A DNA stretch of 41,725 nt from a virus, in the IMG/VR virus record IMGVR_UViG_3300025030_000218, positions 1 to 41,725 of that record; one strand, 5' to 3'. The notes below the pieces were generated by a model that searched no databases, was not told the origin of the DNA, and worked only from the letters and a program-made list of their open reading frames with translations. This document shows positions 6,829 to 37,801 of the stretch, one piece after another. The position numbers were made by a program, and so were the translations under genes. The number at the start of each line of letters is the position of its first letter. Positions within the stretch are counted from its first letter, which is position 1.

Positions 6829-7107
6829 TTATATTTTATAAACTAATTTCTTTGTTTTCATACCTATATAATTATAAACATCACATGACAATGTTTTATC
6901 ATCATATTTAAGATTCACTATTTTTGCTTCTCTAGGAATTGAACAGCCACTTAAACATCCTAGAATTGAATTTCTTACTATAGTTTTACATTCTTTAATT
7001 TCTTCGATATAATCATTCCAATTTTCTATTTCTATTACTCTTGATTGATGGTCTACTATATTGTCGTTACTGTCTAAGGATAAATTAGTTTCGATTATTT
7101 TAATCAT
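6829..7107 (-). CDS. Unknown protein, 92 residues
   Basis: I place the start at the ATG at 7107 because AAAGGAGGAGAATATTTAAC precedes it. Reading from 7176 would run through the neighbouring gene in another frame. The product has the acidic HQSRVIEIENWNDYIEEIKE and a Cys pair in LGCLSGCSIP. Its start is two bases from the stop of the membrane protein at 7109, so the two are translationally close. No family recognised. Confidence 0.6.
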   Translation of the reverse strand: MIKIIETNLSLDSNDNIVDHQSRVIEIENWNDYIEEIKECKTIVRNSILGCLSGCSIPREAKIVNLKYDDKTLSCDVYNYIGMKTKKLVYKI

Positions 7108-7108
7108 G

Positions 7109-7309
7109 TTAAATATTCTCCTCCTTTTTATTTTTCTTATTGCTTGTAAATTTAGAGAATAAACAAAATGCTCCAATAATAAACATATGTAATGCTATAG
7201 TTATTTTACTTGGATGATAATAATTTAGTAAATATAAACCAGTATAAAGTAAAAATATACCACCACATGCGTTAAGAAACATATTCATAATTTTTTCAAA
7301 TTTAGTCAT
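7109..7309 (-). CDS. Two-helix membrane protein, 66 residues
   Basis: Two hydrophobic helices are visible (about 8-28 and 35-54), with a basic, charged C-terminus (SKFTSNKKNKKEENI) likely in the cytoplasm. The tail of the gene carries the ribosome binding site of the next one. Could be an accessory membrane protein; there is no holin-endolysin context to support lysis. Confidence 0.55.
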   Translation of the reverse strand: MTKFEKIMNMFLNACGGIFLLYTGLYLLNYYHPSKITIALHMFIIGAFCLFSKFTSNKKNKKEENI

Positions 7310-10447: not shown

Positions 10448-12376
10448 CTATAAATCTGACTCAGTGAATTTTTTTCTTATATTCCAATCATATCTTCTTG
10501 CTTTACTCCAAAAATTATACTTACCTTCATATATATTAGATTTATTTAATTTTATATTTTTTCTAGAAATCATTTTTACATATCCAATAACTCTTGAAAA
10601 TGTTGCTATATCATCACTACCGCATATATCACATATTTCAATATTTTTACCATCAGTAGCTACAAACTTTTGACCACAATTCATACAACTAGTTAATGTT
10701 GGTGTAAATGTAATATAATTGATTGGTTTATTAAATAATTTATCTAAATATTTTGCTAATTTAATAGGTTCAATTTTTGATTCAATAAAATGGTGTAAGA
10801 TTGAACCACTTGTTGCGTAACCTTGATATTCTGCTGCATTTTCTATTTGTTGAGTAAAATCCTCTTCACTAAATGGTAACATACATCCAGATGTTAGATA
10901 TACATCTTTACCAACACCTTGAACAAATATTTTTTTATTATTTTCTTTTGCCCATTTTAAATCATTTCTAGCTAATTTAATTCCCGCATTTTCTGCAGGT
11001 GCGTATTCGATCCCACAAGCTACTTGATCACGAATAATAAATTCATTTATAATTTCTGTAATATATTGCATTATTTCATGAGCAAATAATTTACCTTCTT
11101 TATTTTTAAGTCCGTTTTCATACCTTATATTAATTAATGCTTCGTGCATACCAGTTACAGCAAATACATTAAAATAATTTTTTAAATCTTTATTAAATGA
11201 AAAAAATGTAGGATATAATTCTTTATTTTGCTCAATAAAATTTCTTTTAGCCATATGACCTTCTTGCATTATTTCAAAATATTCACGTATTTTTAATTTT
11301 AATAATTCTTTATTATGACCAAATTCAATAAATACTCTATTTAAATTTAAATTAAGAACTTGAATAGCACCTGTGTTACCTATAGAAGAACCAAATATTC
11401 CTCCTCCTAATTTTGACAATAAAGAAATGTCTAGGCATAATCTACAGCATAAACTTCTTGATACTTCTGGATCTTTAGATTTAATATTAGGATTCAATTT
11501 CCTATAATACTCATCTTCAAAAGGTTTGGTTTTGAAATTTTCAAAATAAACTCCACCCCATGAATACATTTTATCTAATAAATACAAAAATAATTCATTT
11601 TCATAGTTAAAATTGTCATCAATTTGTACAGTAATTAATGGGAATGTAAATGGAATTCCTGTTCTTGTTCCTTCTGCCATTACATCAATAATAGCTTTAT
11701 TAATTCTGTCAAAATATTGCGATGGAATTTCTGAATATGTAAAATCACTAACATCTCCACTAATCACTACTAATTCATCTTTTATTTCTTCTGAAGGTTT
11801 ACCGAATTCCATTGTTAAATTTGAAAAAGCACTTTCACTACCAGAACGTAATGGTAAGTTTAATTCATAAATTAAAGATTTAAACATTCTTCTAAGTTGT
11901 TTATCTGAATATTTAATACCATTCATTTCTTCATTGTATAAATAAGAAGCAGAAATTGTTGTCATTTGAGATAGCATTACTGCACCAGATACTTGCTGTG
12001 ACATTAAAACAACTACATTACTAAAGTGCCTTAATAATACTTCTAAACTAGAACAAGGTTCTGATTCTAACATATTTTTTGCACGACTTGGTATTCCTAA
12101 TGTAGCAATATCTTTACAAGAAACTGACTGACAATATGAACTTAATTGTTTATCATGTATGTATATAACTCCATCTTTATATAAACCAACAAGTTTTTTA
12201 GGGAATATTTTCGTCATTAAATATTCTTCTTCTGACATATTACAAATATTTTTTCTTAATAATGGTAGTGAATATACAAAATTACTATTTTCTCTTTTTA
12301 AATAATCTGACTTGATATCATCATCATTGGTGATAAATTTATTAATTAAATCATTTGTATTTTTAAACATCGTCAT
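10448..12376 (-). CDS. nrdD: Anaerobic ribonucleoside-triphosphate reductase
   Basis: The class III enzyme reduces NTPs to dNTPs without oxygen, using a glycyl radical made by NrdG. The 642-residue chain shows RSLCCRLCLDIS, GGIFGSSIGNTGAIQVLNLNLNR, EYAPAENAG and VYLTSGCMLPFSE. The C-terminal zinc site is SCMNCGQKF...CDICGSDD, and SRVIGYV carries the radical glycine. I choose the ATG at 12376 after AAAGGAGAT rather than 12400, which lies inside the preceding gene. Its presence implies an anaerobic host. Confidence 0.92.
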   Translation of the reverse strand: MTMFKNTNDLINKFITNDDDIKSDYLKRENSNFVYSLPLLRKNICNMSEEEYLMTKIFPKKLVGLYKDGVIYIHDKQLSSYCQSVSCKDIATLGIPSRAKNMLESEPCSSLEVLLRHFSNVVVLMSQQVSGAVMLSQMTTISASYLYNEEMNGIKYSDKQLRRMFKSLIYELNLPLRSGSESAFSNLTMEFGKPSEEIKDELVVISGDVSDFTYSEIPSQYFDRINKAIIDVMAEGTRTGIPFTFPLITVQIDDNFNYENELFLYLLDKMYSWGGVYFENFKTKPFEDEYYRKLNPNIKSKDPEVSRSLCCRLCLDISLLSKLGGGIFGSSIGNTGAIQVLNLNLNRVFIEFGHNKELLKLKIREYFEIMQEGHMAKRNFIEQNKELYPTFFSFNKDLKNYFNVFAVTGMHEALINIRYENGLKNKEGKLFAHEIMQYITEIINEFIIRDQVACGIEYAPAENAGIKLARNDLKWAKENNKKIFVQGVGKDVYLTSGCMLPFSEEDFTQQIENAAEYQGYATSGSILHHFIESKIEPIKLAKYLDKLFNKPINYITFTPTLTSCMNCGQKFVATDGKNIEICDICGSDDIATFSRVIGYVKMISRKNIKLNKSNIYEGKYNFWSKARRYDWNIRKKFTESDL

Positions 12377-12381
12377 ATATA

Positions 12382-12582
12382 TTATATCTCCTTTACCCAT
12401 TTAATTGCTTCATTAAAATTCATAACTTCTCCATCTACTTCTAGCATGGGGACACTCAAAAATTTCTTCTCCATCATAATATCAATATCATTACATTCTT
12501 CATAAACCACTTGTTTTTCATCTAATTTCATTTTTAAAATTTTACATTTAGCACACCCATTAGAATATAACGTAATCGTGAT
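12382..12582 (-). CDS. Glutaredoxin/NrdH-like thiol protein with non-standard start
   Basis: About 66 residues: TITLYSNGCAKCKILKMKLDE, with a CAKC redox site after the first strand. SVPMLEVDGEVMNF follows, with the cis-proline of the thioredoxin fold, then a final helix. It probably supplies electrons, or keeps thiols reduced, for the reductase encoded next. AAAGGAGGG precedes the frame, but no ATG, GTG or TTG lies before the active site. The candidates are ATC at 12582 or ATT at 12576. Its stop overlaps the nrdD ribosome binding region. Confidence 0.72.
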   Translation of the reverse strand: MTITLYSNGCAKCKILKMKLDEKQVVYEECNDIDIMMEKKFLSVPMLEVDGEVMNFNEAIKWVKEI

Positions 12583-21315: not shown

Positions 21316-21849
21316 TTAGTATTTTATTAAATTTCTTAAATAATAATAGAATGTCGCCCAAATATATAGTCCACTATATTGACTATTTGGCATAAACATA
21401 ATAGATAAATTATACCTATTAGAAAAACTATGTAAACTTCCTAAATATGATTTTTTATTATATTCAGTTTTATAATTGCCATTGCAAATATCTTCATAAT
21501 TTGAATTCTCAATTAATAAATACATTTTCCCTTTATAAAGACCAAATTCTTTCTCAAATCTATCTCGATGTTGAGAAAAATTACCACTTAATTCTTCAAG
21601 AGACATTTTTCTTTCTATAGCAATTTTTTTATCAAAATATAAATCTCTAGGAATTGATAATTCAATATTTTGTGGCAAGAAGAAACTATAATCACCATAA
21701 TCTAATGTTTTTTTATTATATCTTATCTTTTTCTTTTCAAAATAATCAATAATATTTTTATTTTCTTTTTCTCTTGTGTCTACAATAATTGTAATAGATG
21801 ATAATAATTCTTCTTGTTGTTTATCTGTGTATTTATATTGATTAATCAT
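21316..21849 (-). CDS. ERCC4 (XPF)-type nuclease
   Basis: 177 residues carrying the ERCC4 nuclease core: IIVDTREKENKNI, then LDYGDYSF and KKIAIERKMSLEELSGNF (the GDxnERKxxxD-type active site), and a QHRDRFEKEF helix. Such phage proteins cut branched or flap DNA structures. It overlaps the polymerase stop by eight bases (ATGATTAA), so the two are coupled. It may trim recombination or replication intermediates. Confidence 0.85.
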   Translation of the reverse strand: MINQYKYTDKQQEELLSSITIIVDTREKENKNIIDYFEKKKIRYNKKTLDYGDYSFFLPQNIELSIPRDLYFDKKIAIERKMSLEELSGNFSQHRDRFEKEFGLYKGKMYLLIENSNYEDICNGNYKTEYNKKSYLGSLHSFSNRYNLSIMFMPNSQYSGLYIWATFYYYLRNLIKY

Positions 21850-24800
21850 ATTCTACCTCACTTTGAAATTTATAAGATATATTCTGATATTTTGGCATCC
21901 AAAATTCTTCAGTACCTTCTACTTCTCTATAAATTTTCTTTCCTGTTTCTAAATTAATTTCCCCAGTAGGAGACTTTTGTGGTTTGATATCAAAGTTTTT
22001 TACATATAAAAAATCACTTTGTTGAAAGTTATTTCTATTATATTGATTAGTCCATAATTTAATTTCTAATATAGTACCATTACTAATTTGATACAAATTA
22101 ACTTTTACTATTGATTTCATAACTTCTAAATTAGAAACATAATAAATATCATCTGAATATGATTTATCAATATAAGTAATAATACCTAAAATTTCTTTTT
22201 GATTATCTATAATTTCTTTTACTGTTAATGGAATATTTTTTATATTTTTTATTATATCTTGCAATAATTCTTTGCTTTTAAGTTTTGTGATTTTTTTTGC
22301 AGTTTCATTTCCATATTGAATTACAAATTTTAAATCTAATCCGTAATTTTCAATTTTAGATTTTGAAATTTCTTTTGCATCTCTAAATATATCATACCAT
22401 TTAATAATTTCTAATAAGGTATTCACTTCTCCAAATTTTTTAAAATAATTTAATTTAACTAATTTATCTATAATAGTTTTATTTATTTTAAGACCTTTTA
22501 ATGAATCTAAAAATTCTACAAAACTTTTAAATTCATTACTACCTAATTCATATAGTATTTGTACTACCCCTTCACCAAATCCTTTTATGCTAGATAGATT
22601 AGGATATATAATTTTATTTTTTTCATCAATATTAACTCTTCTATTATCTTTACCAAATTCATAATCACCTAATCTATAACCATAAAATGATAATGCTTCT
22701 TTTACAAGAGCATCAATTTTATCTTTTTTATTTTTATCTTGATAATGATTTATTGCTACTTCATAAAATTTTGCTGTATGATGTGCTTTAAACCATGCTT
22801 GATAAGCACTATCTCCTCCCATCGATAAAGCATGAGGAGCATTAAAAGCATAAAAAGCAGATGCTTCTATTACTTTCCATATTTTTTCAAAATTATCTAG
22901 ATTCCCAATTATATTCATCCAATTTTCTTTCAATTTTTTTTGAAGGTCATCTAATTGTTTTCCTTTTAATTTTTTCTTAGATATTGCTTTAAGAACTCCA
23001 TATGCTTCCCCCATTGTTAATCCTAAATATGATAATAATTTCATAATTGATTCTTGATATAACATGAAATGATAACTATCTTCTAATATTCTATCTACTG
23101 TTTCTTCTCCTGTTGTATATTTTTCTCTTGCTAAAAATGTTCCGATGAGAGATTTAAATCCTGGTCTAATTCCTGCAATAAATGCACTAGATTCTGCTAA
23201 TGTTGTTGGTTTGTATTGTTTTACTTTTTTTGTTGTAGATTCTTTTTCCACCTGATTTACACAACAAGTAATTCCTTTAGCATATATATCCCATGTTAAT
23301 TTATCTCCATCAATCATTTCTCTTAATTCATCAAAACTAGGAACATCTTTATTAATACTTTGAAAAAATTTATGAGTTAAATGAACACTATCAACTATAA
23401 GGTAATCATTTTTTACATAACCAAATTCATCTAGATAATTCCCTTCAATACAAGCACATAATGTACGTTTTCCTGTTGTTTCTGATACTGCATTTATTAA
23501 ACCAATTTTTCTTCTTATATCTCCTTCTAGAAGTAAATATCCACAAGCATGACATTTTAAATTTATTACAATACCTTGATATTCTAAACTACCTTTATAA
23601 ATATCTATATATTCTTCTGGAATAAAATCTTCAATATTTATAAATTCTCTATCTATTTCATCTGCATATTTTATTTTTTCATTATATTTATCAATGAATT
23701 TAGAAATTTCATTTGCATGTTCAGGTGTAACATCATTTGCCCCTGCATATAATTGCCATGCTGCTTTTTCTTTTAATTTTCCAATTGCCATAAGAGGATA
23801 ACAACTATGTTCCCCTATTAATTCTCTTGTAGCTTCTACAAATGGTTCTGCTATAGCTAAATTATAGTCAATATCTGGCATTTGCCCACTTAATACTCTT
23901 TCTTTTGTAAGAAATCTTTCTGGATAAATAGGTATTTCACAATTAAATCTATCAATCGTAGTAAATCTTAATAATTTATTTACAATAAAAGATGCTGAAC
24001 TTCCTCTTGAAGTTGTAGTTAAAATACCACCTTTTTCATTAACAGCCTTATTAATAATTTTATCATTTGTTAAAAAATAATCTACAACTCCACTATCAAC
24101 AATCTCTCCTACTTCATATTTTATTCCTTTTACTTTTTCAGATGTTTTTAATTTTTCTTCTTTATATCTTTCATTTAATATTTTTTTAAAAATCTTTACT
24201 TTTTCTTCATATGTTTTATCTTGATATAAACAAGGTATTTTAAAATGTTTATCAAATATTATATCTTCACATTCATTAATAAATATATTTGTATTCATCA
24301 TTGAAGTTATAATTTCTTCATCATTTAATATACCTTGGATTTTAAATCTATTAAATATTTCTTTACCATCTGGAAAATCTAAATACCATCCTTCTTCATC
24401 TTCATATATAATTCCTTTATATTTTAATATTTGATCTCTTTTAATGGTATTCTCTGGTTTAACATAATGACTATCCAAGCCACAAATAATTTGAATATTA
24501 TGCTTTTTAGATATTTCTAAGATTTTTTTGTTTAATAATTTTTGACTTTTTGTATTATGATTTTGTATTTCTAATAAAAAATTATCACCAAAATAATTAT
24601 GTATTTTCAACCATATATCTTCTGCATCTTCATATTTCCATCCTGCAATACAATTATGAACAGAAATTCCTTCTATTCTAAAAGAAGGTGTATTTTCTAC
24701 ACTTAAACAATATACATAATCATTATAATCATATGTTTCAATTTTTCTTACTCTTCTATGTATATAATTTACCCCATCTATGTATACAGGCTTTTTTGAA

Positions 24801-26368
24801 TTCCATCCTATATGTTTAAAATCATATTTTTCGTTTGATTCTAAATATAATTTCCAGTATTGATAGAATTCTTTATTATTAATCTCAATCACATAAACTT
24901 TATTATGATGTATATTGTTTTTATCTATTTTCTCATTTCTAATCGAACAACAACTTTTTAAACCATTTCTTTCTAATATATAACCAACTTCATATGCTAA
25001 TTGCTCTGATATTGTTACATAATTTACTCTGTTTAAATTTTTAGCAATATGTCCATCTCCTAAAAACAAACCTTTTATATATTCCATTTGTAAAAATGGA
25101 GGTAATCTTAGAATAAAATTAGGTGTTTTTTTATTAATTGACCCTGATGGAATTAAATAAGAAAATAATAATGCCATTTCTTTGCTATGAATTAAAACAG
25201 ACATTCCATTTGTATTTTTTTTATCTTGGATAATAGCAGGTTTATTTAAATATTTTAAACTAAATTCATTAATTAAATTATATAAATTATTTTCTTTTTT
25301 ATTAATAGTAAAACAAATATAATTATTTTTTTTATTTATATTCCCTTCTGCTACATATAAACCTAATATTTGTAGAAATAAATTATCTACTTCTATTTTA
25401 GATTTTATAATAGGAGATTTTAATGGTCTACCTAAATTACAATTTTCTCTATAGTTATTTAAAATTAAATCAACATCGATATGCTCTGTAATTTCTATAG
25501 TCCCATCTATTGCACTTAATATTCTATCTTCTGTTGTTAATTCACTTGCTTTTTTCCAAATTATTTTTTTCGTTACATCTGAATGTGTTTTATTTATTGT
25601 TGGAAATTTATGATCTTTAGTACATTTTATACTTTCAAAACAACCTTCAATAAACAAATTATACATTTCACCATTATATTCTCTTTTTGTTGGTACAATA
25701 ACTTTTTCCCAAGTTCCTTTATGTGTAAGAACAAAATCACCTGATCTTACATCTTGAATATTTTTAATTTCGTTTTTTGTTAATACTTTAGTATCTTTTT
25801 CAAAACAAGCAGAAGTGATTATAATATTATCTTTTGGAATATTTAATAATAATTCTAAATCAATTCTTGGTTTATAATAATAACCATCAATATTAGCCAG
25901 AGAGAGAATATAGTTAATATCTTCTCTCCCTTCAGGATTTTTAGCTGTAAGACATATATGACAATTTGTTTTATCTTTATATGTTTTAATTTCTCCTGTT
26001 TTTGTATCTATTTTATATTCTCCAGTTTCTTTATCAATTTCAGGATATTCTTTTAATCTATCTTTTACCCAATATGCTTCAACTGAATGTCTATATTTTA
26101 AATTATATTCTTCTGCTAATTTATAAACTTCAAATTGATTCCCTTGATTCCCATGCTCACCACTAAATAAACATTTTCCTTTATATTCAATAGTTTGTTG
26201 TGCATATGTTTTCATAGATTCAGGACTATCTGCTACTGAGGTATTACTAAAAAATGAATGCTTATGGTAATTTTCACAATATAAATTTTCTGAATAATCT
26301 TCAATAGTATATGGGAATTTAAATTTTAATTTAGGAATAATTTTTTCAATAATTTTTTTCATTGGCAT
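21842..26368 (-). CDS. dnaE: DnaE-like DNA polymerase III alpha subunit containing an intein
   Basis: 1508 residues in precursor form, about 1123 after splicing. The N-terminal PHP domain has NYHKHSFFSN (35-44) and GLDSHYV. It is interrupted by an intein at residues 188-572. The C-family palm motifs follow: TTSRGSSASFIVNKLL (785-800) and MPDIDYNL (830-837), where the two catalytic aspartates are kept. A helix-hairpin-helix-like SSIKGFGEGVVQIL and a C-terminal OB-type region end the protein. The replicative polymerase of the phage. It starts inside the end of the homing endonuclease gene. Confidence 0.9.
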   Translation of the reverse strand: MPMKKIIEKIIPKLKFKFPYTIEDYSENLYCENYHKHSFFSNTSVADSPESMKTYAQQTIEYKGKCLFSGEHGNQGNQFEVYKLAEEYNLKYRHSVEAYWVKDRLKEYPEIDKETGEYKIDTKTGEIKTYKDKTNCHICLTAKNPEGREDINYILSLANIDGYYYKPRIDLELLLNIPKDNIIITSACFEKDTKVLTKNEIKNIQDVRSGDFVLTHKGTWEKVIVPTKREYNGEMYNLFIEGCFESIKCTKDHKFPTINKTHSDVTKKIIWKKASELTTEDRILSAIDGTIEITEHIDVDLILNNYRENCNLGRPLKSPIIKSKIEVDNLFLQILGLYVAEGNINKKNNYICFTINKKENNLYNLINEFSLKYLNKPAIIQDKKNTNGMSVLIHSKEMALLFSYLIPSGSINKKTPNFILRLPPFLQMEYIKGLFLGDGHIAKNLNRVNYVTISEQLAYEVGYILERNGLKSCCSIRNEKIDKNNIHHNKVYVIEINNKEFYQYWKLYLESNEKYDFKHIGWNSKKPVYIDGVNYIHRRVRKIETYDYNDYVYCLSVENTPSFRIEGISVHNCIAGWKYEDAEDIWLKIHNYFGDNFLLEIQNHNTKSQKLLNKKILEISKKHNIQIICGLDSHYVKPENTIKRDQILKYKGIIYEDEEGWYLDFPDGKEIFNRFKIQGILNDEEIITSMMNTNIFINECEDIIFDKHFKIPCLYQDKTYEEKVKIFKKILNERYKEEKLKTSEKVKGIKYEVGEIVDSGVVDYFLTNDKIINKAVNEKGGILTTTSRGSSASFIVNKLLRFTTIDRFNCEIPIYPERFLTKERVLSGQMPDIDYNLAIAEPFVEATRELIGEHSCYPLMAIGKLKEKAAWQLYAGANDVTPEHANEISKFIDKYNEKIKYADEIDREFINIEDFIPEEYIDIYKGSLEYQGIVINLKCHACGYLLLEGDIRRKIGLINAVSETTGKRTLCACIEGNYLDEFGYVKNDYLIVDSVHLTHKFFQSINKDVPSFDELREMIDGDKLTWDIYAKGITCCVNQVEKESTTKKVKQYKPTTLAESSAFIAGIRPGFKSLIGTFLAREKYTTGEETVDRILEDSYHFMLYQESIMKLLSYLGLTMGEAYGVLKAISKKKLKGKQLDDLQKKLKENWMNIIGNLDNFEKIWKVIEASAFYAFNAPHALSMGGDSAYQAWFKAHHTAKFYEVAINHYQDKNKKDKIDALVKEALSFYGYRLGDYEFGKDNRRVNIDEKNKIIYPNLSSIKGFGEGVVQILYELGSNEFKSFVEFLDSLKGLKINKTIIDKLVKLNYFKKFGEVNTLLEIIKWYDIFRDAKEISKSKIENYGLDLKFVIQYGNETAKKITKLKSKELLQDIIKNIKNIPLTVKEIIDNQKEILGIITYIDKSYSDDIYYVSNLEVMKSIVKVNLYQISNGTILEIKLWTNQYNRNNFQQSDFLYVKNFDIKPQKSPTGEINLETGKKIYREVEGTEEFWMPKYQNISYKFQSEVEYD
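24653..25807 (-). other. Intein with LAGLIDADG domain inside the polymerase PHP domain
   Basis: The intein is 385 residues, from Cys188 (CFEKDTKVLT) to Asn572 (GISVHN), followed by the +1 extein Cys of CIAGWKY. The B-block TxxH is visible as CTKDHKF. Two dodecapeptide motifs (LQILGLYVAEG and EYIKGLFLGDG) form the homing endonuclease domain. The splice ends (Cys, His-Asn, Cys) are intact, so it should splice. The insertion lies after IITSA in the PHP domain, away from the polymerase active site where most DnaE inteins sit. Confidence 0.85.
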
Positions 26369-27576
26369 ATACCTATTATATTACTGATATTTTCATTATT
26401 TTTAAATACTCTTTGCCATGTACTTTTGTAATCTAAATTATATTTTTTACATAAATCTGTAAATAATATTTCTTCATTTTTATATTTAATATAAATTTTT
26501 TTTTCTTCTCCATAAATATTTTTATTTTCTGTTATTTTATATTTAATAATATCTAAATCATTAGGAATATTATTTAATATAATTTTATCTATTTTTCTAG
26601 AAGATGGAGCATCAAATCGTAAATATCTAATATCTTTTTCTTGCCAGCAAATTAATTCAAATTTTTCTTTAAAAATATTTATAGCATAATCAATATCATC
26701 TTGAGTATATTCTGCAACACATAATTCCCAATTAGACTTATCTCTATAACCATCATCTAACATCCAAATTGAAAATGAAAATTTATTCATTAAATTTAAT
26801 AAATATGTATATGATTTTCCTCTATATTCTAATAAACAATCATGTATTCTTGTAGATAATCTATATTGTGGTTGACATAAATACATTTTACCATTAAATT
26901 CTCTATAACATGCTTCTTTCCTAACAGGAGAAATATTACAGAATTCCTTAAGATTATTATATTTATAATATAAATAATCTTTTTGATTTTCTGCATGTGA
27001 TTCTATAAATATAGGTTGATCTTCTCTCTTATCAATATGACCATCCCCTAACATTGAACCAATAATTAAATCTTTTTGTTTTTCATTTAATTGCTTATTA
27101 ACTTGTCTATATTCTTGAGTTATTCTATGTATTTCGGTACACCATTTTTCAATCACTCTTTTTGTACATTTTGCTTCTTTTGCCATTTCTTTATGACTTA
27201 AACCTTCAACCATATATTTTTGATAACACCAATTATAATCTTGATATATAGCTTTAAATTTATTGCTATTTTTATATTTTGTTTTTATTCCCATTTGATT
27301 TACTTTACTATTAATTGATGTAACACTTTTATGTAATATTTCTGCAATCTCTTTATATGGAATTATTTTTTCTACTAATTCTATTAATTTATTTTCTTCT
27401 TCTGGTTTCCAATATATTCTCTTATCATTTATATCCGGTTGTGAAGAATCAATTATTTTACCATGATTCTTTATTTGCAAATAATGCTTGTTACATAAAT
27501 TTTTCCCATATTTACTATTTTTATTAAATCTTGATGTATTTAATTCTGATACACCACATATACTACAATATTGCAT
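26359..27576 (-). CDS. Free-standing LAGLIDADG homing endonuclease with SANT-like domain
   Basis: 405 residues from the ATG at 27576, right after AAGGAGGAATAAT. N-terminal cysteine knuckles (CSICGV, CNKH) and a Myb/SANT-like helix set (WKPEEENKLIELVEKIIPYKEIAEIL) precede two LAGLIDADG motifs (DLIIGSMLGDGHI and FSIWMLDDGYRD). A C-terminal helix-turn-helix-like LFTDLCKKYNLDYKSTWQRVF follows. It sits directly upstream of the intein-bearing polymerase gene. It probably cuts polymerase-region DNA of competing phages to spread this segment. Confidence 0.85.
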   Translation of the reverse strand: MQYCSICGVSELNTSRFNKNSKYGKNLCNKHYLQIKNHGKIIDSSQPDINDKRIYWKPEEENKLIELVEKIIPYKEIAEILHKSVTSINSKVNQMGIKTKYKNSNKFKAIYQDYNWCYQKYMVEGLSHKEMAKEAKCTKRVIEKWCTEIHRITQEYRQVNKQLNEKQKDLIIGSMLGDGHIDKREDQPIFIESHAENQKDYLYYKYNNLKEFCNISPVRKEACYREFNGKMYLCQPQYRLSTRIHDCLLEYRGKSYTYLLNLMNKFSFSIWMLDDGYRDKSNWELCVAEYTQDDIDYAINIFKEKFELICWQEKDIRYLRFDAPSSRKIDKIILNNIPNDLDIIKYKITENKNIYGEEKKIYIKYKNEEILFTDLCKKYNLDYKSTWQRVFKNNENISNIIGICQ

Positions 27577-27595
27577 ATTATTCCTCCTTATTATT

Positions 27596-28408
27596 TTATT
27601 CAATTAAACACTTATCTCTAAAACTACATAAATTAACACAAAAGAAATCTTTTTCAGCATTATAATTTTTATTCCAAAATATAATATCTTTATCCAACAA
27701 TTCAATTTCATCTACTGTATTTGTCACATAATCTTCAATATCTTTTTTAGCAATATCATCATCATATTTTATTATTACTAATCCATCTGAGTAATCCTCA
27801 AATATACTACATTTATTTCTTTCAACTAATTTATTATTTTGAATTACGTACTTTAACATATTAAAATATAAATTAATCTTCATATTTGGATATTGTTTAC
27901 TTAAAGCATATGCATATAAATATAATTGTCTTTGTTTTTTAAGTAAATCTTTCTTACTATATTTACTACTTGTTTTTAAATCACATATATGTATTTTCCC
28001 ATCTTTAAAATACCATAAATCAATATATCCTTTCATCATAACTCCATTTACATTCACTTCAAAGTATTCTTCAATCTTAAAATCTTTTATTGCTTCGGAA
28101 ATATAATTTTCAAAAAAATGTGTAATACATTCTTTATAATTATTTTTAACTTTTTCACTAATCCATTCTAATCCAAGCATATCAGCATCATCTACTGCTT
28201 GAGTAAATTTTTCTACAGCACCTTCATTTGTTTCTTTATTCTCAATTATCCCTTGAGTTAATTCATGGCATATAGTACCTAAAAAACTATATATGTTTTC
28301 ACCACCTCTTTGTCCAAGAACATATGTATAAAAATAACTTCTTTTACAATTATGAAAACTATCTAATCTACTAAAGCTATATATTATTTTACTCAATATC
28401 ACACCCAC
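27596..28408 (-). CDS. PD-(D/E)XK nuclease with Fe-S-type cysteines (Cas4/AddB-like)
   Basis: About 270 residues. The opening YSFSRLDSFHNCKRSYFYTYVLG has the first cysteine. The core shows GYIDLWYFKDGKIHICDLKTS (Asp and DxK of the nuclease) and KKQRQLYLYAYAL. The end FFCVNLCSFRDKC supplies three more cysteines for a 4Fe-4S cluster. This layout matches Cas4/AddB-type exonucleases used in phage recombination. Start codon unsettled: GTG at 28408 lies within the ribosome-binding region, and TTG at 28396 is a likely alternative. Confidence 0.8.
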   Translation of the reverse strand: MGVILSKIIYSFSRLDSFHNCKRSYFYTYVLGQRGGENIYSFLGTICHELTQGIIENKETNEGAVEKFTQAVDDADMLGLEWISEKVKNNYKECITHFFENYISEAIKDFKIEEYFEVNVNGVMMKGYIDLWYFKDGKIHICDLKTSSKYSKKDLLKKQRQLYLYAYALSKQYPNMKINLYFNMLKYVIQNNKLVERNKCSIFEDYSDGLVIIKYDDDIAKKDIEDYVTNTVDEIELLDKDIIFWNKNYNAEKDFFCVNLCSFRDKCLIE

Positions 28409-29421
28409 TCTACATAATTATTTTTTAATTCTATAAATTTTTCTTTACCTAAATCTGTAGGACTCATTTTTGATTCTTTAGGTAATATTTTATTTTCTTT
28501 ATCTATGATATATCCCACTTTAATATCTTTAAATTTTAACATAGATTTTATTTTATTAATTTGATTTACAACAATTTCTTCCTTTAAACCTTCATCCATT
28601 CCTAAAATTATTTTTTGAGGTTGCAAATTTATTATATTTATTATTTGATGATAATGAATTGAATTACCACCCAATGCTAATCCAGTATATATATCCATAC
28701 TATCTAATTGCATTGCTCCCTTTTCAGATTCAAAAATATATAATTCTTCACATCCTTGAAGGTATTGGTAATTTTCTGTATAACCATATAATGTTTGAGA
28801 TTTTAGATGAGGAATTACTGGACACCATTTTAATGTATTATCCATTTCATAATCTCCTATATATCTTCCAGTAATACCAACTAAATCTCCTTCAAAACTC
28901 CACCAAGGACATGTAATTCTTTGTGATAATATATCAAATCCAATTTTAAATTTCTTTTGTGTTTGAAATGATATATTATCACGAAAAAACATAATATTAT
29001 ATTTATCCAAATATTGATTTAAAATATTCTCATCATAAGTTTTTAATTCTATAACATGTGCATTTTTAGATTTAATTTTATTATAGAATCCTCCAAATAC
29101 AGATTTTCTTTTCTTATAATAATAAAATGAATCAATTCCTAATTCTTTTTTAATAATATTAATAACTTCTTTAAATTCAACATTTTTACTTTTAATAATA
29201 AAACTGATAAAATCACAATTAATTCCTCTACCATAATCAGAAACATATAAATATTGATTATTATGTAATTTAATTCTTATTGATGTTTTATTAGTTTTTT
29301 CATTAATACCAGCACGAATCTCATGTGATTTGAGATCAATATTATGAAACTCATAATATTCTAATATATTTTTAATATGTATAGGATTATCTATGAGTTT
29401 TTGTTTGATTTCAGTTATCAC
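28399..29421 (-). CDS. dnaG: DnaG-type primase
   Basis: 340 residues; GTG at 29421 is chosen because TGGAG lies eight bases upstream, while the ATG at 29439 has no site. The N-terminal part (IRIKLHNNQYLYVSDYGRGINCDFISFI) resembles the zinc/DNA-binding front of primases. The TOPRIM core is visible as YIFESEKGAMQLDSM, ALGGNSIH and IILGMDEGLKEE. Makes RNA primers for the polymerase. It lies between helicase and nuclease genes, as expected for a replication operon. Confidence 0.82.
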   Translation of the reverse strand: MITEIKQKLIDNPIHIKNILEYYEFHNIDLKSHEIRAGINEKTNKTSIRIKLHNNQYLYVSDYGRGINCDFISFIIKSKNVEFKEVINIIKKELGIDSFYYYKKRKSVFGGFYNKIKSKNAHVIELKTYDENILNQYLDKYNIMFFRDNISFQTQKKFKIGFDILSQRITCPWWSFEGDLVGITGRYIGDYEMDNTLKWCPVIPHLKSQTLYGYTENYQYLQGCEELYIFESEKGAMQLDSMDIYTGLALGGNSIHYHQIINIINLQPQKIILGMDEGLKEEIVVNQINKIKSMLKFKDIKVGYIIDKENKILPKESKMSPTDLGKEKFIELKNNYVEWV

Positions 29422-29483
29422 AAAATTCGCTCCATCCATATAAATTATGTATTAATATCATATTACTTATATAATAATTTAAT

Positions 29484-31037
29484 TTATCCTCCAATCTTTC
29501 CATGTTTCGGTCTTGAATATGCAGATTCAGTAAATGTTCCTGTATTTCCATTAAATTTTAGAAGCATAGCTACTCCTGTATCACTTGAATTTTCACCATT
29601 TCTATTTTTTTCAAAGAATAACATTCTATAAACCGCTGTTGGATCTGGTTCATATTCTTCTTCACACCATTTATTTTGTATTTTTACTCTTTTAAATGGT
29701 TTACAATAATACTTACTACTTTTATCTAATTCATCTGAAAATACTGGTCTAATTAATAATAATGTTTCTAATATTTCTTTTATTTGTTTTGATTGACTTA
29801 ATGTTGAAGCATCTAAAAATAATATTCCAAATAATGCTTGTGCTAATTGAATATTTGCAAATCCTATAAGATTATATTTTTTAGCAAGTTTATCTAGTTC
29901 TCTAGAATCTTTAATTAAATTTAACCAGTTTTGATCTCCTTTCATATTTGTTAATTCTGATTTAAATGTATCATAAACAAAACAATCGAATCCATGAGAC
30001 AAAGCATAATATCTTACTTTCTTTTTTACTAAATTAATGTCTGCATCTGCTATTTGAATAAATTTAAAATATTTACTATATTCTTCATTCCATAATTTTT
30101 GTGCTTTTTTTATATATTCTTTGTCAATATCTGTTAATTCATTTTTATTTTTTATTTTTCTTTTAGTTACTTTAAAATACTTAAACTTTTTAGCAAGTAA
30201 CCATGTAATAAATTGAATCTTAAATACTGTACTTTTTTGTTCATTTGTAATAATTAATGTTTTTTTCCCTTGTGAAGCTAATGCCATTAATATTGTAATA
30301 ATTAATGTAGTTTTTCCAGAAGAACTAAAACCACCCAACATATGTAATGCTCCTGATAATAAACCTCCTATTTGATTGGATATATAAGGAAAACACATTA
30401 CATTATTTCCATCACAATCAATTCCACACGTATTAAATGGTACACCACTTTCTAATCCTGATTGTACTTCTTCAATAAATTCATCTGTAATATCAAGATT
30501 ACCTTCTTCTATAATTTTACTACTATTTCTAGTTGAAAATGTTGATAGTTTATTTTCATAATATTCAATAACACTTTCACTATCCATTTTTCTAAATAAA
30601 TCTAATGGAATAATATTTTTACCGTCTTCTTCTACAGCACTTAGCAAATTAAATCCATTATTATACAAATTAATTATAATGTTTTCTCTATATAAAATAT
30701 CTAGATATGTATCCCAATTTTTGTCATTAATTATGTCAATTAGGTTTTGTATTGTATTCCATCCACCTCTATTTTGAAAACTTTCTTCAATCATTTCAGA
30801 TATATTAGATAGAATAGTTACTTCATCAATAGAAGGGAATCCTTTAGATCTTATATTTTGAATTAAAGCAAAATAAAATCTACCATCTATTGACAAAAAA
30901 TCTTCAATTTTAAGATTACATTCATCAAGTAATAAAATGTCTTTAAATAAGCAAGAAATAACATTACCTTCTATGGTTATTCTTCCTTTAAGTAATTGTT
31001 CAGGATATTTACTGCAACCACTAATAAATTCACTCAA
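29484..31037 (-). CDS. dnaB: DnaB-family replicative helicase
   Basis: 517 residues. The N-terminal domain (residues 1-150, LLDECNLKIEDFLSIDGRFYFALI) is of the DnaB-N type. The RecA-like motor has Walker A in MLGGFSSSGKTTLIITILM, KTLIITNEQK, and Walker B FDCFVYDTF. FANIQLAQALFG and a C-terminal RMLFFEKNRNGENSS follow. Unwinds the fork 5' to 3'. TTG at 31037 follows GGAGGG with five bases spacing. The stop of the preceding gene is one base away. Confidence 0.85.
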   Translation of the reverse strand: MSEFISGCSKYPEQLLKGRITIEGNVISCLFKDILLLDECNLKIEDFLSIDGRFYFALIQNIRSKGFPSIDEVTILSNISEMIEESFQNRGGWNTIQNLIDIINDKNWDTYLDILYRENIIINLYNNGFNLLSAVEEDGKNIIPLDLFRKMDSESVIEYYENKLSTFSTRNSSKIIEEGNLDITDEFIEEVQSGLESGVPFNTCGIDCDGNNVMCFPYISNQIGGLLSGALHMLGGFSSSGKTTLIITILMALASQGKKTLIITNEQKSTVFKIQFITWLLAKKFKYFKVTKRKIKNKNELTDIDKEYIKKAQKLWNEEYSKYFKFIQIADADINLVKKKVRYYALSHGFDCFVYDTFKSELTNMKGDQNWLNLIKDSRELDKLAKKYNLIGFANIQLAQALFGILFLDASTLSQSKQIKEILETLLLIRPVFSDELDKSSKYYCKPFKRVKIQNKWCEEEYEPDPTAVYRMLFFEKNRNGENSSDTGVAMLLKFNGNTGTFTESAYSRPKHGKIGG

Positions 31038-31576: not shown

Positions 31577-32716
31577 TTATTCAAAAATATGTAATATTTC
31601 TTCAAATACTCTTGTTGGTAAGGCAAGATCAAATTTTGATGTACCATTTTTTTCTAATATATCTTTCACTGATTTTTTTTGTTCAGGATTGGCAGTTTTA
31701 TAATGACTAGTAATTTTCTTAACTAATTCTTTATTTTTCTCTTCATCTGATATATTATCTAAATCTTCTCTAATTTCTTGTACCTTTTCTTCTGCTTCAT
31801 TTATACGTTCAGTTTCTTGCTTTTCTTTTATTTGTTTTAATTCTTTATCAGAAGTCTTACCATGATATTTTTCATGTTGTTTTTTAATTGCAACAAGAAT
31901 AGTATCAATAAAAATATTTGTATCAAATTCAATTTTAGGTTCAATATCAATAAAATGTGATTTTACATCAATTGCATATTCTTCATCTCTAAATACAATC
32001 ACTCTACGTTCAGAAGCAATTCTACCTACTTGTTTATTTTTCTTGCTAAATGCATCCTTAACTGTTTCAATATCATTCATTTCTCTTTCTATGTATGCAC
32101 AAGCAACAATATTTACTTTATCTTTAATTGCATTATAGTATTTAGCTTCTAAATTTGAGGTAAGTTGTTCATATTCAATATCAGTCATAAGATCTTTTTT
32201 ATTTTTTTGTTTTGTATGACCAATAAAGAAAATACCATATTTAGCATCTCTTAACTTAAATACAGTAGAAATAACTAAATCTACTACTTTATTTTCTCCT
32301 CCCTGAAACCCACCATATGCTTGTTTAATTGATTTTACTCTTTTCTCTGGTATAACAGAAGCATTATATATCTCTACTACTTCTTCTTCTGCAAGTCTAA
32401 ATAATTCATCTACAGTATCTATTGCAATCATTTTTAAATTTTTATAATCTTCATTTCTATATGCAACTAGATCATCAACCATTTCTGTTAAATCTTCCCA
32501 TGTTCCTGCTCTATCAGATAAAACTCCTCCTAAATGATCTGGTTCAGGTTCTTGACCTACAGTTAAAATCATTATTCCATCTTCACCGTAAAGAGTTTTA
32601 CCAACTTCATATGCTAAAGTCGTTTTCCCGATCCCGGCGATTCCATCTAATAAATAACTATAATTAGCAAAATCAATTTTGACTTCTTTTCTTTTACCTA
32701 CTTTTCTTCTTGTCAT
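31577..32716 (-). CDS. Sak4-like RecA-fold ATPase (phage recombination)
   Basis: 379 residues: NYSYLLDGIAGIGKTTLAYEVG (Walker A about residues 26-33), MIAIDTVDELFRLA (Walker B), and YGIFFIGHTKQ. A Lys/Glu-rich coiled region ends the protein. The pattern matches the phage AAA/Sak4 ATPases that promote single-strand annealing and act with an SSB. The next gene upstream encodes an SSB-like protein, which supports the call. Good ATG with AAAGGAGATTAAAATTT. Confidence 0.75.
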   Translation of the reverse strand: MTRRKVGKRKEVKIDFANYSYLLDGIAGIGKTTLAYEVGKTLYGEDGIMILTVGQEPEPDHLGGVLSDRAGTWEDLTEMVDDLVAYRNEDYKNLKMIAIDTVDELFRLAEEEVVEIYNASVIPEKRVKSIKQAYGGFQGGENKVVDLVISTVFKLRDAKYGIFFIGHTKQKNKKDLMTDIEYEQLTSNLEAKYYNAIKDKVNIVACAYIEREMNDIETVKDAFSKKNKQVGRIASERRVIVFRDEEYAIDVKSHFIDIEPKIEFDTNIFIDTILVAIKKQHEKYHGKTSDKELKQIKEKQETERINEAEEKVQEIREDLDNISDEEKNKELVKKITSHYKTANPEQKKSVKDILEKNGTSKFDLALPTRVFEEILHIFE

Positions 32717-34485: not shown

Positions 34486-34515
34486 ATTATAACATTTATA
34501 TTATCATTCTGTCAA
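34486..34515 (-). promoter_or_regulatory. Promoter with conserved spacer, for the replication operon
   Basis: Minus-strand TTGACA (34515-34510), an 18-base spacer reading GAATGATAATATAAATGT, and TATAAT (34491-34486). The spacer nearly matches the one at 37772-37801, which suggests a phage-specific promoter class. The -35 box lies inside the right arm of the terminator hairpin of the PARP operon. Confidence 0.7.
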
Positions 34516-34551
34516 GAGAAATTTTATTTATTTTTATTTTTCCCTTGACAG
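34509..34551. terminator. Inverted repeat ending the PARP operon
   Basis: CTGTCAAG (34509-34516) and CTTGACAG (34544-34551) are perfect complements, with further A/T-rich pairing inside. It follows the PARP stop by about 10 bases. It overlaps the -35 box of the next promoter, so ending one transcript and starting the next are interlocked. Confidence 0.45.
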
Positions 34552-34561
34552 AAATTAATAA

Positions 34562-35791
34562 CTACCTCAATTCAATTAAATATTTTATAGTACATTGTTC
34601 TTCTTTATATACTATTATTTCATCATTCTTTAATGTTGAATAACCAATATTTGCACCTGCATGTGCATGTAAACAATTACTACCAGGACACATTATTTGT
34701 AAGTTTTCATAGTTTAAATTATGATATTTACTATCAAATGTATAAACATCATAAGGTTTACCATAAGCAACATTAAATAATGCCATAAATCCTGAATTAC
34801 TATTACCTTTAACCCAATAACTTCCATTTAAAGATGTATATCCTAAACTTTTTCTAGCTTTTGGAGCAAAGTAAATACCATTCCCATATAATTTACCTGT
34901 GATTACTGCTGGAGGTCTAAGTGCTAGACCCATATTAATAATTGACCAGAAATTCTCTGATTTACTGCCATGCCATAATAACTTCATATTATTTATATTA
35001 TTGCTCTGTGTAAATTCATCAAATTTCTTTTGTGTCTTAATGTTAATTACTTTCCATGCTTGATAAAACTTATCACTAATACCACCAAGATTTTTCTTGA
35101 TTAATTCTTTTTCTTCCTGATTAATTTCTTCAAATTGCAATCCTAAGACTTCTAATATTGTTTGATTTGGCATTTCATATGTATCATTTTCATTATTTTC
35201 ATCTTTGACTATTGAATGCTGTACCACCTGCCCTTTCATTACATCAAGTAAATCTTGCTCTCTTTGAATAATCTCACTAAAATCTTTATCATCTTTTGCT
35301 AAGTAATCTTTAACTTTTCCCATTTTTCTAGGAATAGTTTTAAATAAATCAACTAATATCTTATTAAATAATTCAATATCATCTGTATCAATTAAATTAT
35401 TTAAAATTAATTGTGCTTCGTCAATCATTTGTTGTGTAACTTTATTAGAAGATATTGTATAATTATCTTTAATTGCTTGTCATGCCATTGATTGTAATCT
35501 TATTACAATTTGTGCGATTGAAGGAATAATAATATCAAGGTATTCTTTCTTTTTATTTTGAGGGATAATAGTTTCTGCAACTAATCTACTATTGTCCACA
35601 TAACCCTTTTTTATTTTACTTTTATACTGAGATTCCCATTTAAATATAGGATAAGTTTTTGTTTGATATCCTGAATTACCTATCCTACCATATTTACATA
35701 TAAAGTAACCATCTCCTTTATCCAACATCTGGTAATATTTATTATTATTCTCTCCTGGTTCTACTTTAACTAAATACAATGGATTTTGCAT
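34562..35791 (-). CDS. WGR-PARP ADP-ribosyltransferase, frame interrupted by one in-frame UGA
   Basis: From the ATG at 35791 the first 103 codons encode a WGR domain (YYQMLDKGDGYFICKYGRIG...KTYPIFKWESQYKSK). A TGA at 35480-35482 then interrupts the frame, which continues without shift (QAIKDNYTISSNK) into a helical PARP regulatory part and the catalytic domain. Its features are LLWHGSKSENFW, YGNGIYFAPKARKSLGYTS, ALFNVAYGKPYDV and NDEIIVYKEEQ. His, Tyr and Glu of the H-Y-E triad are kept (H153, Y197 and E270 counted from the ATG at 35428). PARPs use NAD+ to add ADP-ribose; WGR binds DNA breaks. Two polypeptides, readthrough, or a nonsense mutation are all possible. Confidence 0.82.
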
Positions 35792-35804
35792 ATATCCACC
35801 TCTC

Positions 35805-36224
35805 TTATAAATAACAAACTAGAATTTCAACATCAACATCCTCAAAAACTTCTTCAATTATTTCCTTAACAATGCTCCAATCTAATCTGTCCAAACCGCA
35901 TCCGATCAATGGAATCGCAATTTTTTCTACTCCTAAACTAATAACTTGCTCCATCATATCTACCAATGCTTCATTTAAACTATCATATGTAGGTTTATGA
36001 AATGCTCTTCTTTTAGTCACAAGATTAAATACATTATCAATAAGAATTGCACAATTATCAGATTTATATTCTGCAACTTCTTTTAACTTTTTACGCATAT
36101 TATATAACTCATTGAATTTAACTGCTATTCCTGCACCTAAAGCAAAATCACCTGAAATACAATGTGCAAAATAATAACCATGTGGTACTGAAAATAAATC
36201 TCTTTGTTCTTCTTTAATAATCAT
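35805..36224 (-). CDS. TARG1-like macrodomain ADP-ribosyl hydrolase
   Basis: 139 residues from the ATG at 36224 after AAAGGAGGAAATATT. The sequence YYFAHCISGDFALGAGIAVKF, NLVTKRRAFHKPTYDSL and IAIPLIGCGLDRLDW runs parallel to human TARG1/OARD1. Both its catalytic Lys (TKR) and Asp (GLDRL) are kept. TARG1-type enzymes remove ADP-ribose from glutamate and aspartate residues, and possibly from DNA ends. It lies 13 bases upstream of the WGR-PARP start, so eraser and writer are co-expressed. Confidence 0.85.
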   Translation of the reverse strand: MIIKEEQRDLFSVPHGYYFAHCISGDFALGAGIAVKFNELYNMRKKLKEVAEYKSDNCAILIDNVFNLVTKRRAFHKPTYDSLNEALVDMMEQVISLGVEKIAIPLIGCGLDRLDWSIVKEIIEEVFEDVDVEILVCYL

Positions 36225-36252
36225 AATATTTCCTCCTTTTAATTTGTTTATT

Positions 36253-37725
36253 TTAATTATAACTAGGAACAATCTTATCATCTCTATATTCAATCAATCT
36301 ACATAGTCTTAAATCCAATTCACCTTTTTCATTAACATTTTCATCAGTATACCTTACTTTAACAATTTTTCCCATTAATTCATCTTGATGATTCCAAATA
36401 TAATCTCTAACCATCCTATTATCATATTTTTCTGGATTATATTTTACTTTATATCCACACATTACTTTTGCTGGTTTACCTTTATAATCTATAATTATTT
36501 TACCTAAAGTATTTTCAAATTCCTTACCTTTTTCACCTTTTTCAAAACCAATAATAGCCACATCAGCTTCTTTCTCAGTTTTAACTTTTAACATTTGCTG
36601 ATATGATTTTTTACCATAATACTTAGCATCTAAAGGTAAAACCATAATGCCCTCATCATCTTGATCCATCATTTTTTCAAACCAATAATCAATTTGAGCA
36701 ATATTTTTTCCGATATAAAAAGAATCAACATTTTTAATTAAAGGTGAATTAATCTTATCAATCAATTCTTTTGCTAAATTCTTTCTATCTCTACAAGTCA
36801 TAGGATGATAACCTTTATAAAATCCATCATCAGGAATAAAATTAAATATATTAACTTCTATTCCATGCTTTTCTCCATCTTTCCTAAGAATAGAACCAGT
36901 TTTATTAAATCTCTCTATTCTAGACATTATATTTTCATTATCTGTTGCTAATAATTCACAAACAAATACTCCATGTGGTAAATCAGTTTCAGATAATATT
37001 TTTTCAATATCAACCAATTCTTTATAAATTTCTCCACCAGAAGACATTATTTTAACTTTATTATTTCCAATTTCTATTTCACTTCTGTATCCATCTAATT
37101 TTCTATAAATACCAAATTCCTTACCTTTAAGCCATTTAAAATGTTTTTCTTCTGCTACTTCGCCTTTCTCTAACTTGTGTATATAAATAAATTCATATCC
37201 GAAAGCAGAATTAACAGTTTTTTCTTTTAATCCACAACGTAAGTCTTGAAGTATAATTTTAATATACAATTCTTTCATATCTTCTTCTTGTTGAGATAAA
37301 AACTGTTGAATATTTGCAATTACTTCATCTGAACCAGTATTATGATTAGATAGATAATCTCTTAAATCATAGAAATTATTCATAATTACTGTTGGTTTAG
37401 AATTAACTTCCTTCTCAAGTTTTTTACGTTTAATACCTGTTTTAACTTCTAAAGTATTATAAACGAATGTAAGAATATCTTTGAATAGTTGATTGTTTTG
37501 ATTCTTTTTTAAGATAGATTCTTTTTCATTGCGACTACTTGTACTTGCTAATTGATTAACAATACTTAATACTTCTTGCATATATGTAACCTCCTTCAAT
37601 TCTTCCTTTATATATCTACCTTCTGAATATTCATGACATTTATCATTGTATATATCATCCAAACCATCACATTCTTCTAATACTTCATCTAAAAACCAAT
37701 GACAATTTGCACAACATTCTTTTAT
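36253..37725 (-). CDS. ATP-dependent DNA ligase, with an in-frame cysteine-rich N-terminal extension
   Basis: The ligase proper starts at the ATG at 37581 (site AAGGAGG; 442 residues). It has an N-terminal helical DNA-binding part, motif I FGIYRKLDGYRSEIE with the adenylated Lys, ELLATDNENIMSR, DDEGIMV and a MLKVKTEKEADV motif V. An OB-type end GKIVKVRYTDENVNEKGELDLRLCRL follows. The frame is open upstream to ATA 37725, eight bases after AAAGGAGG, adding ECCANCHWFLDEVLEECDGLDD...CHEY, a zinc-type module. Both forms may be made. Seals nicks; first enzyme of the operon with the macrodomain and PARP. Confidence 0.85.
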   Translation of the reverse strand: MKECCANCHWFLDEVLEECDGLDDIYNDKCHEYSEGRYIKEELKEVTYMQEVLSIVNQLASTSSRNEKESILKKNQNNQLFKDILTFVYNTLEVKTGIKRKKLEKEVNSKPTVIMNNFYDLRDYLSNHNTGSDEVIANIQQFLSQQEEDMKELYIKIILQDLRCGLKEKTVNSAFGYEFIYIHKLEKGEVAEEKHFKWLKGKEFGIYRKLDGYRSEIEIGNNKVKIMSSGGEIYKELVDIEKILSETDLPHGVFVCELLATDNENIMSRIERFNKTGSILRKDGEKHGIEVNIFNFIPDDGFYKGYHPMTCRDRKNLAKELIDKINSPLIKNVDSFYIGKNIAQIDYWFEKMMDQDDEGIMVLPLDAKYYGKKSYQQMLKVKTEKEADVAIIGFEKGEKGKEFENTLGKIIIDYKGKPAKVMCGYKVKYNPEKYDNRMVRDYIWNHQDELMGKIVKVRYTDENVNEKGELDLRLCRLIEYRDDKIVPSYN

Positions 37726-37771: not shown

Positions 37772-37801
37772 ATTATAACATTTATTTTACCATTCTGTCA
37801 A
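37772..37801 (-). promoter_or_regulatory. Promoter of the ligase-macrodomain-PARP operon
   Basis: TTGACA (37801-37796), an 18-base spacer GAATGGTAAAATAAATGT and TATAAT (37777-37772) on the minus strand. The spacer differs from that at 34486-34515 at only two positions. It overlaps the end of the upstream gene. Confidence 0.72.

Follow-up and report, generated by a model that had tools for sequence, protein, structure and literature searches.

A TARG1-type macrodomain paired with a WGR-PARP in large phages: a candidate module for reversible ADP-ribosylation

DNA-break-triggered ADP-ribosylation is usually discussed as a eukaryotic process, and bacterial PARPs are few and scattered. Why, then, does a viral DNA of 41,725 bases with 24% G+C (IMG/VR virus record IMGVR_UViG_3300025030_000218, hereafter the window) carry in a row a DNA ligase, a macrodomain resembling the ADP-ribose eraser TARG1 and a writer of the WGR-PARP type? 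A preliminary description of the window took the three genes for a single operon that might serve DNA-break signalling and repair, modification of host proteins or defence against NAD-based immunity. The answer that we favour, with somewhat more confidence than doubt, is that the macrodomain and the PARP form a phage-borne module for reversible ADP-ribosylation, whose likeliest use is the control of DNA ends and of the proteins bound to them during phage replication. The genes are laid out as follows in window coordinates, L002 and L007 being near copies of the window among the relatives described below.

36253–37578, minus strand: ATP-dependent DNA ligase, 441 amino acids (aa), open frame from ATG 37578; the frame is open further upstream to 37725
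35805–36224, minus strand: TARG1-type macrodomain, 139 aa, open frame from ATG 36224; PF01661 match, 6.6e-6
35480–35791, minus strand: WGR part of the WGR-PARP gene, an open reading frame (ORF) of 103 aa ended by an in-frame TGA
35480–35482, minus strand: this premature TGA, codon 104 of the PARP frame; also in L002, whereas L007 is open
34562–35479, minus strand: helical (HD) and ADP-ribosyltransferase part of the PARP frame; first ATG at 35428

Relatives were collected by two PARP scans of IMG/VR (the second represented by the best 80 of 99 matches) and one of GTDB genomes. The resulting 85 distinct viral contigs and 10 genome loci make, with the window, 96 rows (L numbers denote loci and G numbers large contigs). 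L077/L134 and L092/L131 each appear to be one element present in both collections; like the near copies L002 and L007, they are still included in the first count. Four rows have fewer than 450 bases upstream of the PARP, leaving 92 usable loci. The macrodomain lies directly upstream of the PARP and co-oriented with it in 72 of these (65 TARG1-type, 7 of another class), one gene from it in 9 (8 TARG1-type, 1 of the other class) and elsewhere in the locus in 2; it is absent from the locus in 9. Together, the adjacent and the one-gene-apart arrangements account for 81 of the 92 loci, a co-occurrence in related phages of the kind that the preliminary description had looked to for support. When PARPs at least 95% identical are merged, 59 of the 81 pairs remain (51 TARG1-type, 8 of the other class). 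A macrodomain is also present in all of the 28 large PARP contigs (G001–G028, which are 28 of the 29 viral contigs above 100 kb and may be fragments; L112, 102 kb, was excluded): in 26 it is a Pfam match at E ≤ 0.001 (18 of these exceed the cut-off), and in the remaining two our own model places it next to the PARP. The pairing is beyond chance. A history in which the three genes share a replication cluster and nothing else is accordingly highly improbable; the pair, together with a ligase of either type in many contigs, does lie in or near replication genes, but the closed macrodomain–PARP junction contrasts with the window's other neighbours, which adjoin the PARP in no more than 15 of the 96 rows.

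Where one gene separates the pair, four of the nine intervening genes (L006 3923–4720, L012 4312–5628, L042 4769–5645 and L131 7109–7993) resemble, by eye, different homing-type endonucleases, inserted in separate lineages. A PARG match was found in none of the 28 large contigs, and the control genomes were equally silent, so that this result does not show absence.

The best evidence that the macrodomain serves the PARP comes from a replacement in the same slot. In one PARP clade (8 rows; SH-aLRT 97 in a quickly built tree, some of whose branches are long) the position before the PARP holds a different macrodomain class. For L024, the sole member searched, the closest match is Streptomyces coelicolor SCO6735 (5e3b, 9.8e-12), with Bacteroides thetaiotaomicron BT1257 almost level (2fg1, 2.8e-11), followed by DarG (3e-8) and TARG1 (0.0017). 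SCO6735 is reported to span the functional range of TARG1 despite having no Lys/Asp dyad (PMC9411070). By analogy with these characterised relatives, which act on the same substrates, both classes that occupy the slot would be expected to serve the PARP.

The window macrodomain is close to TARG1, as the preliminary description had recognised. By sequence its nearest solved structure is human TARG1 (4j5r, E 6.5e-28), and the TARG1 dyad is retained as the Lys of VTKRR (in TK) and the Asp of CGLD, the equivalents of Lys84 and Asp125. Structures were modelled with AlphaFold2, and structural matches were taken from a Foldseek list re-examined with VIA-align. The macrodomain model (140 residues including one codon before the Met; pLDDT 94.8, pTM 0.90) superimposes on TARG1 4j5r_A with Z 24.6 and 1.2 Å over 137 aligned residues at 41% identity; the DarG macrodomain comes second (Z 20.0). 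Across the 73 TARG1-type partners the Lys is found in all and the Asp in 60, the others having Asn (9), Glu (2) or Gly (2). The GAG-loop glycine is lost in the partners of L012, L013, L044, L100, L103–L106, L111 and L113; some of these have lost the Asp as well, and the Lys is kept. Judged by these residues, the glycine-less partners are perhaps binders rather than hydrolases.

A search with the macrodomain alignment, from which the best 80 of 167 matches were kept, approached the pair from the other side. A PARP lies directly downstream in 55 and one gene further in 7; there is none nearby in 17, and one contig ends too soon. TARG1-type macrodomains also match 13 phage records under 9 names (LP65, LpeD, phage G, Fnu1 and others, FLC9 being a weak match at 8e-4), none of which overlaps the 15 PARP-matching records. 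Such solitary macrodomains are what an anti-defence or host-takeover role would lead one to expect. The PARP would then modify host proteins while the macrodomain separately undoes host ADP-ribosylation of phage DNA of the DarTG type, the shared operon reflecting early counter-defence genes. TARG1 and SCO6735 are described as removing the thymidine adduct of DarT and rescuing cells (PMC8501950, PMC9411070), and ICP1 is reported to encode a functional antitoxin that acts against DarTG (PMC11481870). We nevertheless regard separate counter-defence roles as possible but unlikely: the steady gene order with the PARP across a wide clade and the same-slot swap point to a shared substrate, and no head gene is among the neighbour genes run (those of the window and those picked from the distant loci considered below), against about 44% of phage ADP-ribosyltransferases (ARTs) in head-packaging-like contexts according to one survey (PMC9503650).

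The PARP has the architecture of a DNA-end-regulated enzyme. On the read-through frame Pfam finds PF00644 (PARP, 2.4e-23) and PF05406 (WGR, 1.6e-5; 25.3 bits against a cut-off of 22), and at E ≤ 0.01 these are the only matches of the protein, with no DarT-type transferase and no sirtuin. Pfam gives no match to the regulatory domain, but the model shows helices that align, from residue 84–85, with PARP1/2/3 fragments containing the helical domain. The nearest solved structure by sequence is human PARP1 (3.2e-15). The model of the open L007 PARP (pLDDT 82.7, pTM 0.78) matches PARP-1 bound to a DNA double-strand break (4dqy_C) with Z 26.4 and 3.6 Å over 364 aligned residues at 21% identity, spanning residues 1–409; the scores of the 50 structural rows shown span no more than 2 Z, which does not separate PARP1, 2 and 3. 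Together the models show PARP1–3-like and TARG1 folds with the active-site residues kept. In the PARP alignment of 101 rows (the 96 rows and 5 named-phage loci) the residues of the H-Y-E triad are present in 101, 101 and 100 sequences, respectively, and L047 ends early, without the Glu. The first letter of the WGR motif is Y in 88 rows, F in 8, W in 2, N in 1 and a gap in 2; the window reads Y-G-R, and Y in place of W is described as usual for bacterial PARPs (PMC5966428). One 290-kb contig, L123, has tandem WGR-PARP genes (4071–5318 and 5968–7209), of which the upstream copy has the lower score against the family model.

The window's own copy departs from this picture. The preliminary description had seen one WGR-PARP gene with an H-Y-E triad; the domains and the triad stand, but the single open gene and, with it, the active writer do not, because the frame starts at 35791 and meets the TGA at 35482–35480. 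Over 12,864 bases L002 has the same sequence as the window, including the stop, and L007, with a single difference over that length, is open at the stop position. An assembly error is unlikely, since the stop recurs in L002, a contig with 7 differences from the window. These seven differences presumably lie in the last 297 bases of the window, where contig-end errors are possible, because L002 matches perfectly from position 298 of the reversed window. Genetic recoding of TGA was considered and rejected: TGA ends 3 of 40 tallied ORFs (the WGR piece and two others), and nearly all relatives are open at this position. ARAGORN found no tRNA in the window, and hence no suppressor tRNA was seen there. 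To judge from its reading frame, the writer of the window allele probably has no activity without read-through of the stop, and the claim of a module is therefore made at the level of the family and rests on the relatives.

The PARP frame is broken in 7 of the 101 rows, which look like four events: the window with L002, L127–L129, L078, and a frame break in L139. In all seven the macrodomain beside the PARP is open. Broken writers fit a costly or conditionally needed enzyme, and a toxin–antitoxin pair would look the same. A pair of this kind, or one for superinfection exclusion, would have the PARP as toxin and the upstream macrodomain as antitoxin. It would agree with the antitoxin-first gene order, with the repeated breakage of the PARP next to an open macrodomain, with the prediction of phage sirtuin-Macro pairs as toxin–antitoxin systems (PMC9503650) and with a temperate lifestyle of the carriers. 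The latter is suggested by tyrosine recombinases in 26 of the 28 large contigs (none in G001, a near relative of the window) and by two PARP loci inside long chromosome contigs, L136 (3.1 Mb) and L139 (2.2 Mb). We nonetheless think a toxin–antitoxin function improbable. The domain architecture is that of an enzyme regulated by DNA ends rather than that of DarT. Furthermore, only 2 of 391 genomes in the class of R. bromii have a PARP match, the centre itself and a weak one (1.7e-6, barely over the cut-off), and the PARP is thus rare in the chromosomes of that class.

Does the ligase belong to the module? That it is ATP-dependent was correctly described. The frame from 37725 matches PF01068 (DNA_ligase_A_M, 1.5e-10, 41.5 bits against a cut-off of 26.2) and phrog_114 (1.3e-69); the protein contains the nucleotidyltransferase domain of ATP-dependent ligases, and its KLDG is presumably the ligase motif. 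In 22 of the 96 rows the gene immediately preceding the macrodomain is an ATP-ligase. Of the large contigs, 8 of 28 carry an ATP-ligase that exceeds the Pfam cut-off, and in all eight an ATP-ligase lies no more than about 3 kb from the PARP (the second one of G011 is far from it); 19 encode an NAD-dependent ligase. The two types never occur together in these contigs, and G018 alone lacks both. Three ATP-ligase matches below the threshold lie on frames of NAD-ligases. The ligase is thus an optional but non-random companion of the pair: it is not a fixed third member, yet wherever a large contig has an ATP-ligase over the cut-off, one lies beside the pair. Upstream of the window ligase, positions 37725–37579 form an open in-frame extension with several cysteines (CCANCHW...C), preceded by what is by eye a ribosome site, with no usual start codon.

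The same counts bear on the idea that the PARP depletes NAD+ and starves the host's NAD-dependent ligase while the phage's ATP-dependent ligase serves as a bypass. The window ligase beside the PARP is indeed ATP-dependent. However, the 19 large contigs with an NAD-dependent ligase have no ATP-ligase over the cut-off, and because these phages encode their own NAD-dependent ligase, loss of NAD+ would harm the phage itself. As a general purpose, ligase starvation is contradicted by these contigs and is scarcely credible; nothing was found in favour of a role in countering NAD-based defence, which the preliminary description had also mentioned.

The genomic setting points to replication. The minus strand carries 41 of the window's 42 ORFs of at least 100 aa, and the three genes lie at the upstream edge of the window's replication and recombination block, whose parts are listed here.

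31577–32716, minus strand: Sak4-like single-stranded DNA annealing protein in the replication and recombination neighbourhood; phrog_124, 3.8e-17
21316–31037, minus strand: replication block with DnaB-like helicase, primase, exonuclease, D5-like/HNH protein, DNA polymerase and ERCC4-type nuclease, from PHROG matches

Ten neighbours picked from six distant loci include replication genes in five (L036, L043, L044, L105 and L109), namely polymerase, primase, exonuclease, ERCC4 nuclease or ligase; in the sixth, L126, the sole gene checked is a phosphatase. The titles of all 10 genome loci are Bacillota. Because the pair often lies among the replication and recombination genes of large Bacillota phages, we consider control of DNA ends its likeliest use. 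An NrdD-like anaerobic ribonucleotide reductase at 10448–12400 of the window points to an anaerobic host.

Taking as given what was observed directly, i.e. the genes, their order and conservation, the predicted folds, the active-site residues and the genomic setting, we infer activation by DNA ends, protein or DNA substrates, reversal and a benefit to the phage, and propose the following model. The WGR domain would bind DNA ends or nicks and thereby free the transferase from the brake of the helical domain. The H-Y-E transferase would pass ADP-ribose from NAD+ to acidic residues of nearby proteins, including itself, DNA ends being possible further acceptors. The TARG1-type macrodomain encoded just upstream would remove the mark, and in some lineages the ligase of the same operon would close the break. 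The WGR-PARPs of H. aurantiacus and C. difficile CD160 (HaPARP and CdPARP) are reported to auto-modify in vitro with activated DNA and NAD+ (PMC5966428). PARP1–3 are reported to modify phosphorylated DNA ends in vitro, the mark of PARP3 being reversed by TARG1, and ADP-ribosylated 5′ ends may undergo ligation or be shielded from processing (PMC8385414). A more specific form of the model, in which ADP-ribose put by the PARP on the 5′-phosphate ends of phage DNA in replication or recombination protects them from host and phage nucleases, the TARG1-type enzyme removes these caps when required and the ligase of the operon seals the ends, appears to us rather unlikely. If it were true, phages would hold a compact, eukaryote-like toolkit for DNA-break signalling, and would be a possible evolutionary source of it.

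Several observations weigh against the module as proposed. (i) Nine of the 92 loci have no macrodomain in the locus, four of these having one only tens of kb away. (ii) Across the 51 pairs of the TARG1 type the correlation of PARP with macrodomain distances is modest (Mantel r 0.43, a value that none of 2000 permutations reached), and shared descent alone could explain this. (iii) The TARG1 Asp is replaced in 13 of the 73 partners. (iv) In the search from the macrodomain side, the downstream sequence is long enough for 79 TARG1-type macrodomains, and 17 of these lack a PARP in their vicinity; the eraser therefore has other uses too. (v) The window PARP is not one uninterrupted frame; with the broken PARPs of L002, L127–L129, L078 and L139 and the early end of L047, this makes the writer dispensable in some phages. 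(vi) The WGR part of the PARP model is covered by few structural rows, most of which span residues 84–409 only, and a predicted fold does not in itself demonstrate DNA dependence. Set against these points, the conserved adjacency, the replacement of one macrodomain class by another in the same slot, the kept active sites and the structure models uphold the pairing of writer and eraser that was first proposed.

The signals that flank the operon are given below together with a second promoter.

37772–37801, minus strand: sigma-70-type promoter, TTGACA-18-TATAAT with TG before the second hexamer; 12/12 match
34507–34553, strand not assigned: inverted repeat with 15-base arms, 93% complementary, and 17 bases between them
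34486–34515, minus strand: second promoter, ahead of 34436–34113; near copy of the operon promoter

The operon promoter is an exact match, as first noted. The window contains 3 perfect sites of this type against 0.40 expected, and three were reached in 2 of 100 shuffles; weaker promoter-like sites, 81 in number, are no commoner than the 79.8 expected by chance. The promoters at 37801–37772 and 34515–34486 match at 28 of 30 positions. The extended promoter sequence is also present in L002, L006, L007 and L014, and this shared element may be a phage-specific regulated promoter. The repeat had been read as terminator-like at 34509–34551. The repeat itself is there, but a terminator is unsupported by the sequence, and the terminator scan, limited to loops of 3–8, could not list it either way. 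An operator or promoter element seems the more likely identity, given that one of its arms includes the −35 box belonging to the second promoter and that the sequence after it has no T run.

Dozens of large phages have conserved a writer next to a TARG1-type eraser. They provide a small genetic system for testing the role of ADP-ribosylation at DNA ends, and the pair offers a possible natural setting for the ADP-ribosylation of DNA ends, which has so far been described mainly in vitro. How much of it is new? Four dsDNA viruses, including two phages, have been reported to encode PARPs, and many viral genomes to carry TARG1-like homologues, of which few have the complete set of TARG1 residues (PMC4245714); PARPs have likewise been noted in jumbo phages (PMC7824862), and the PARP family is counted among the commonest viral ARTs (PMC9503650). 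A published tree of bacterial PARPs includes clostridial ones, for which the available text of that source mentions neither a phage origin nor a macrodomain partner (PMC5966428). In open-licence literature, no title or abstract among the matches listed describes a conserved phage pair of macrodomain and WGR-PARP. These matches do not contradict the novelty first claimed for the operon, but phage PARPs, viral TARG1-like macrodomains and other phage writer/eraser pairs had been described before (PMC4245714, PMC9503650).

The closest known enzymes are human PARP1/2/3 and the bacterial HaPARP and CdPARP, which have the same order of WGR, helical and H-Y-E transferase domains; the top entry of both structural lists is PARP-1 on a DNA break. 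Compared with PARP1, the phage protein has no zinc fingers and no BRCT domain, and in contrast to the human and bacterial WGR-PARPs it is phage-borne, paired with a macrodomain and, in the window allele, interrupted. Human TARG1 (OARD1, C6orf130) shares fold and dyad with the window macrodomain, which is here a stand-alone phage gene directly upstream of a PARP. The PARPs of Cellulophaga phi17:2, Klebsiella 05F01, Xanthomonas XacN1 and Stenotrophomonas RAS14 have the same architecture, are 24–31% identical and keep H-Y-E. None of the annotated regions of these four phages has a macrodomain directly beside the PARP; in Klebsiella 05F01 a macrodomain lies about 4.9 kb upstream, and Cellulophaga phi17:2 has a ligase one gene away. 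In the unannotated L063, two macrodomain models found none in 21 kb, ORFs of at least 80 aa being listed over 6–16 kb only. Adjacent phage writers and erasers are likewise known from the sirtuin-Macro pair of Streptomyces phage Moab and the ART-ARG pair of Aeromonas phages, both predicted to be toxin–antitoxin systems (PMC9503650); their writers are a sirtuin or another ART, whereas here the writer is a WGR-PARP (PF00644). DarTG, finally, also combines a transferase with a macrodomain, of the ALC1 class, but in the phages described here a WGR-PARP takes the place of DarT, and the pair resides in the replication region of the phage.

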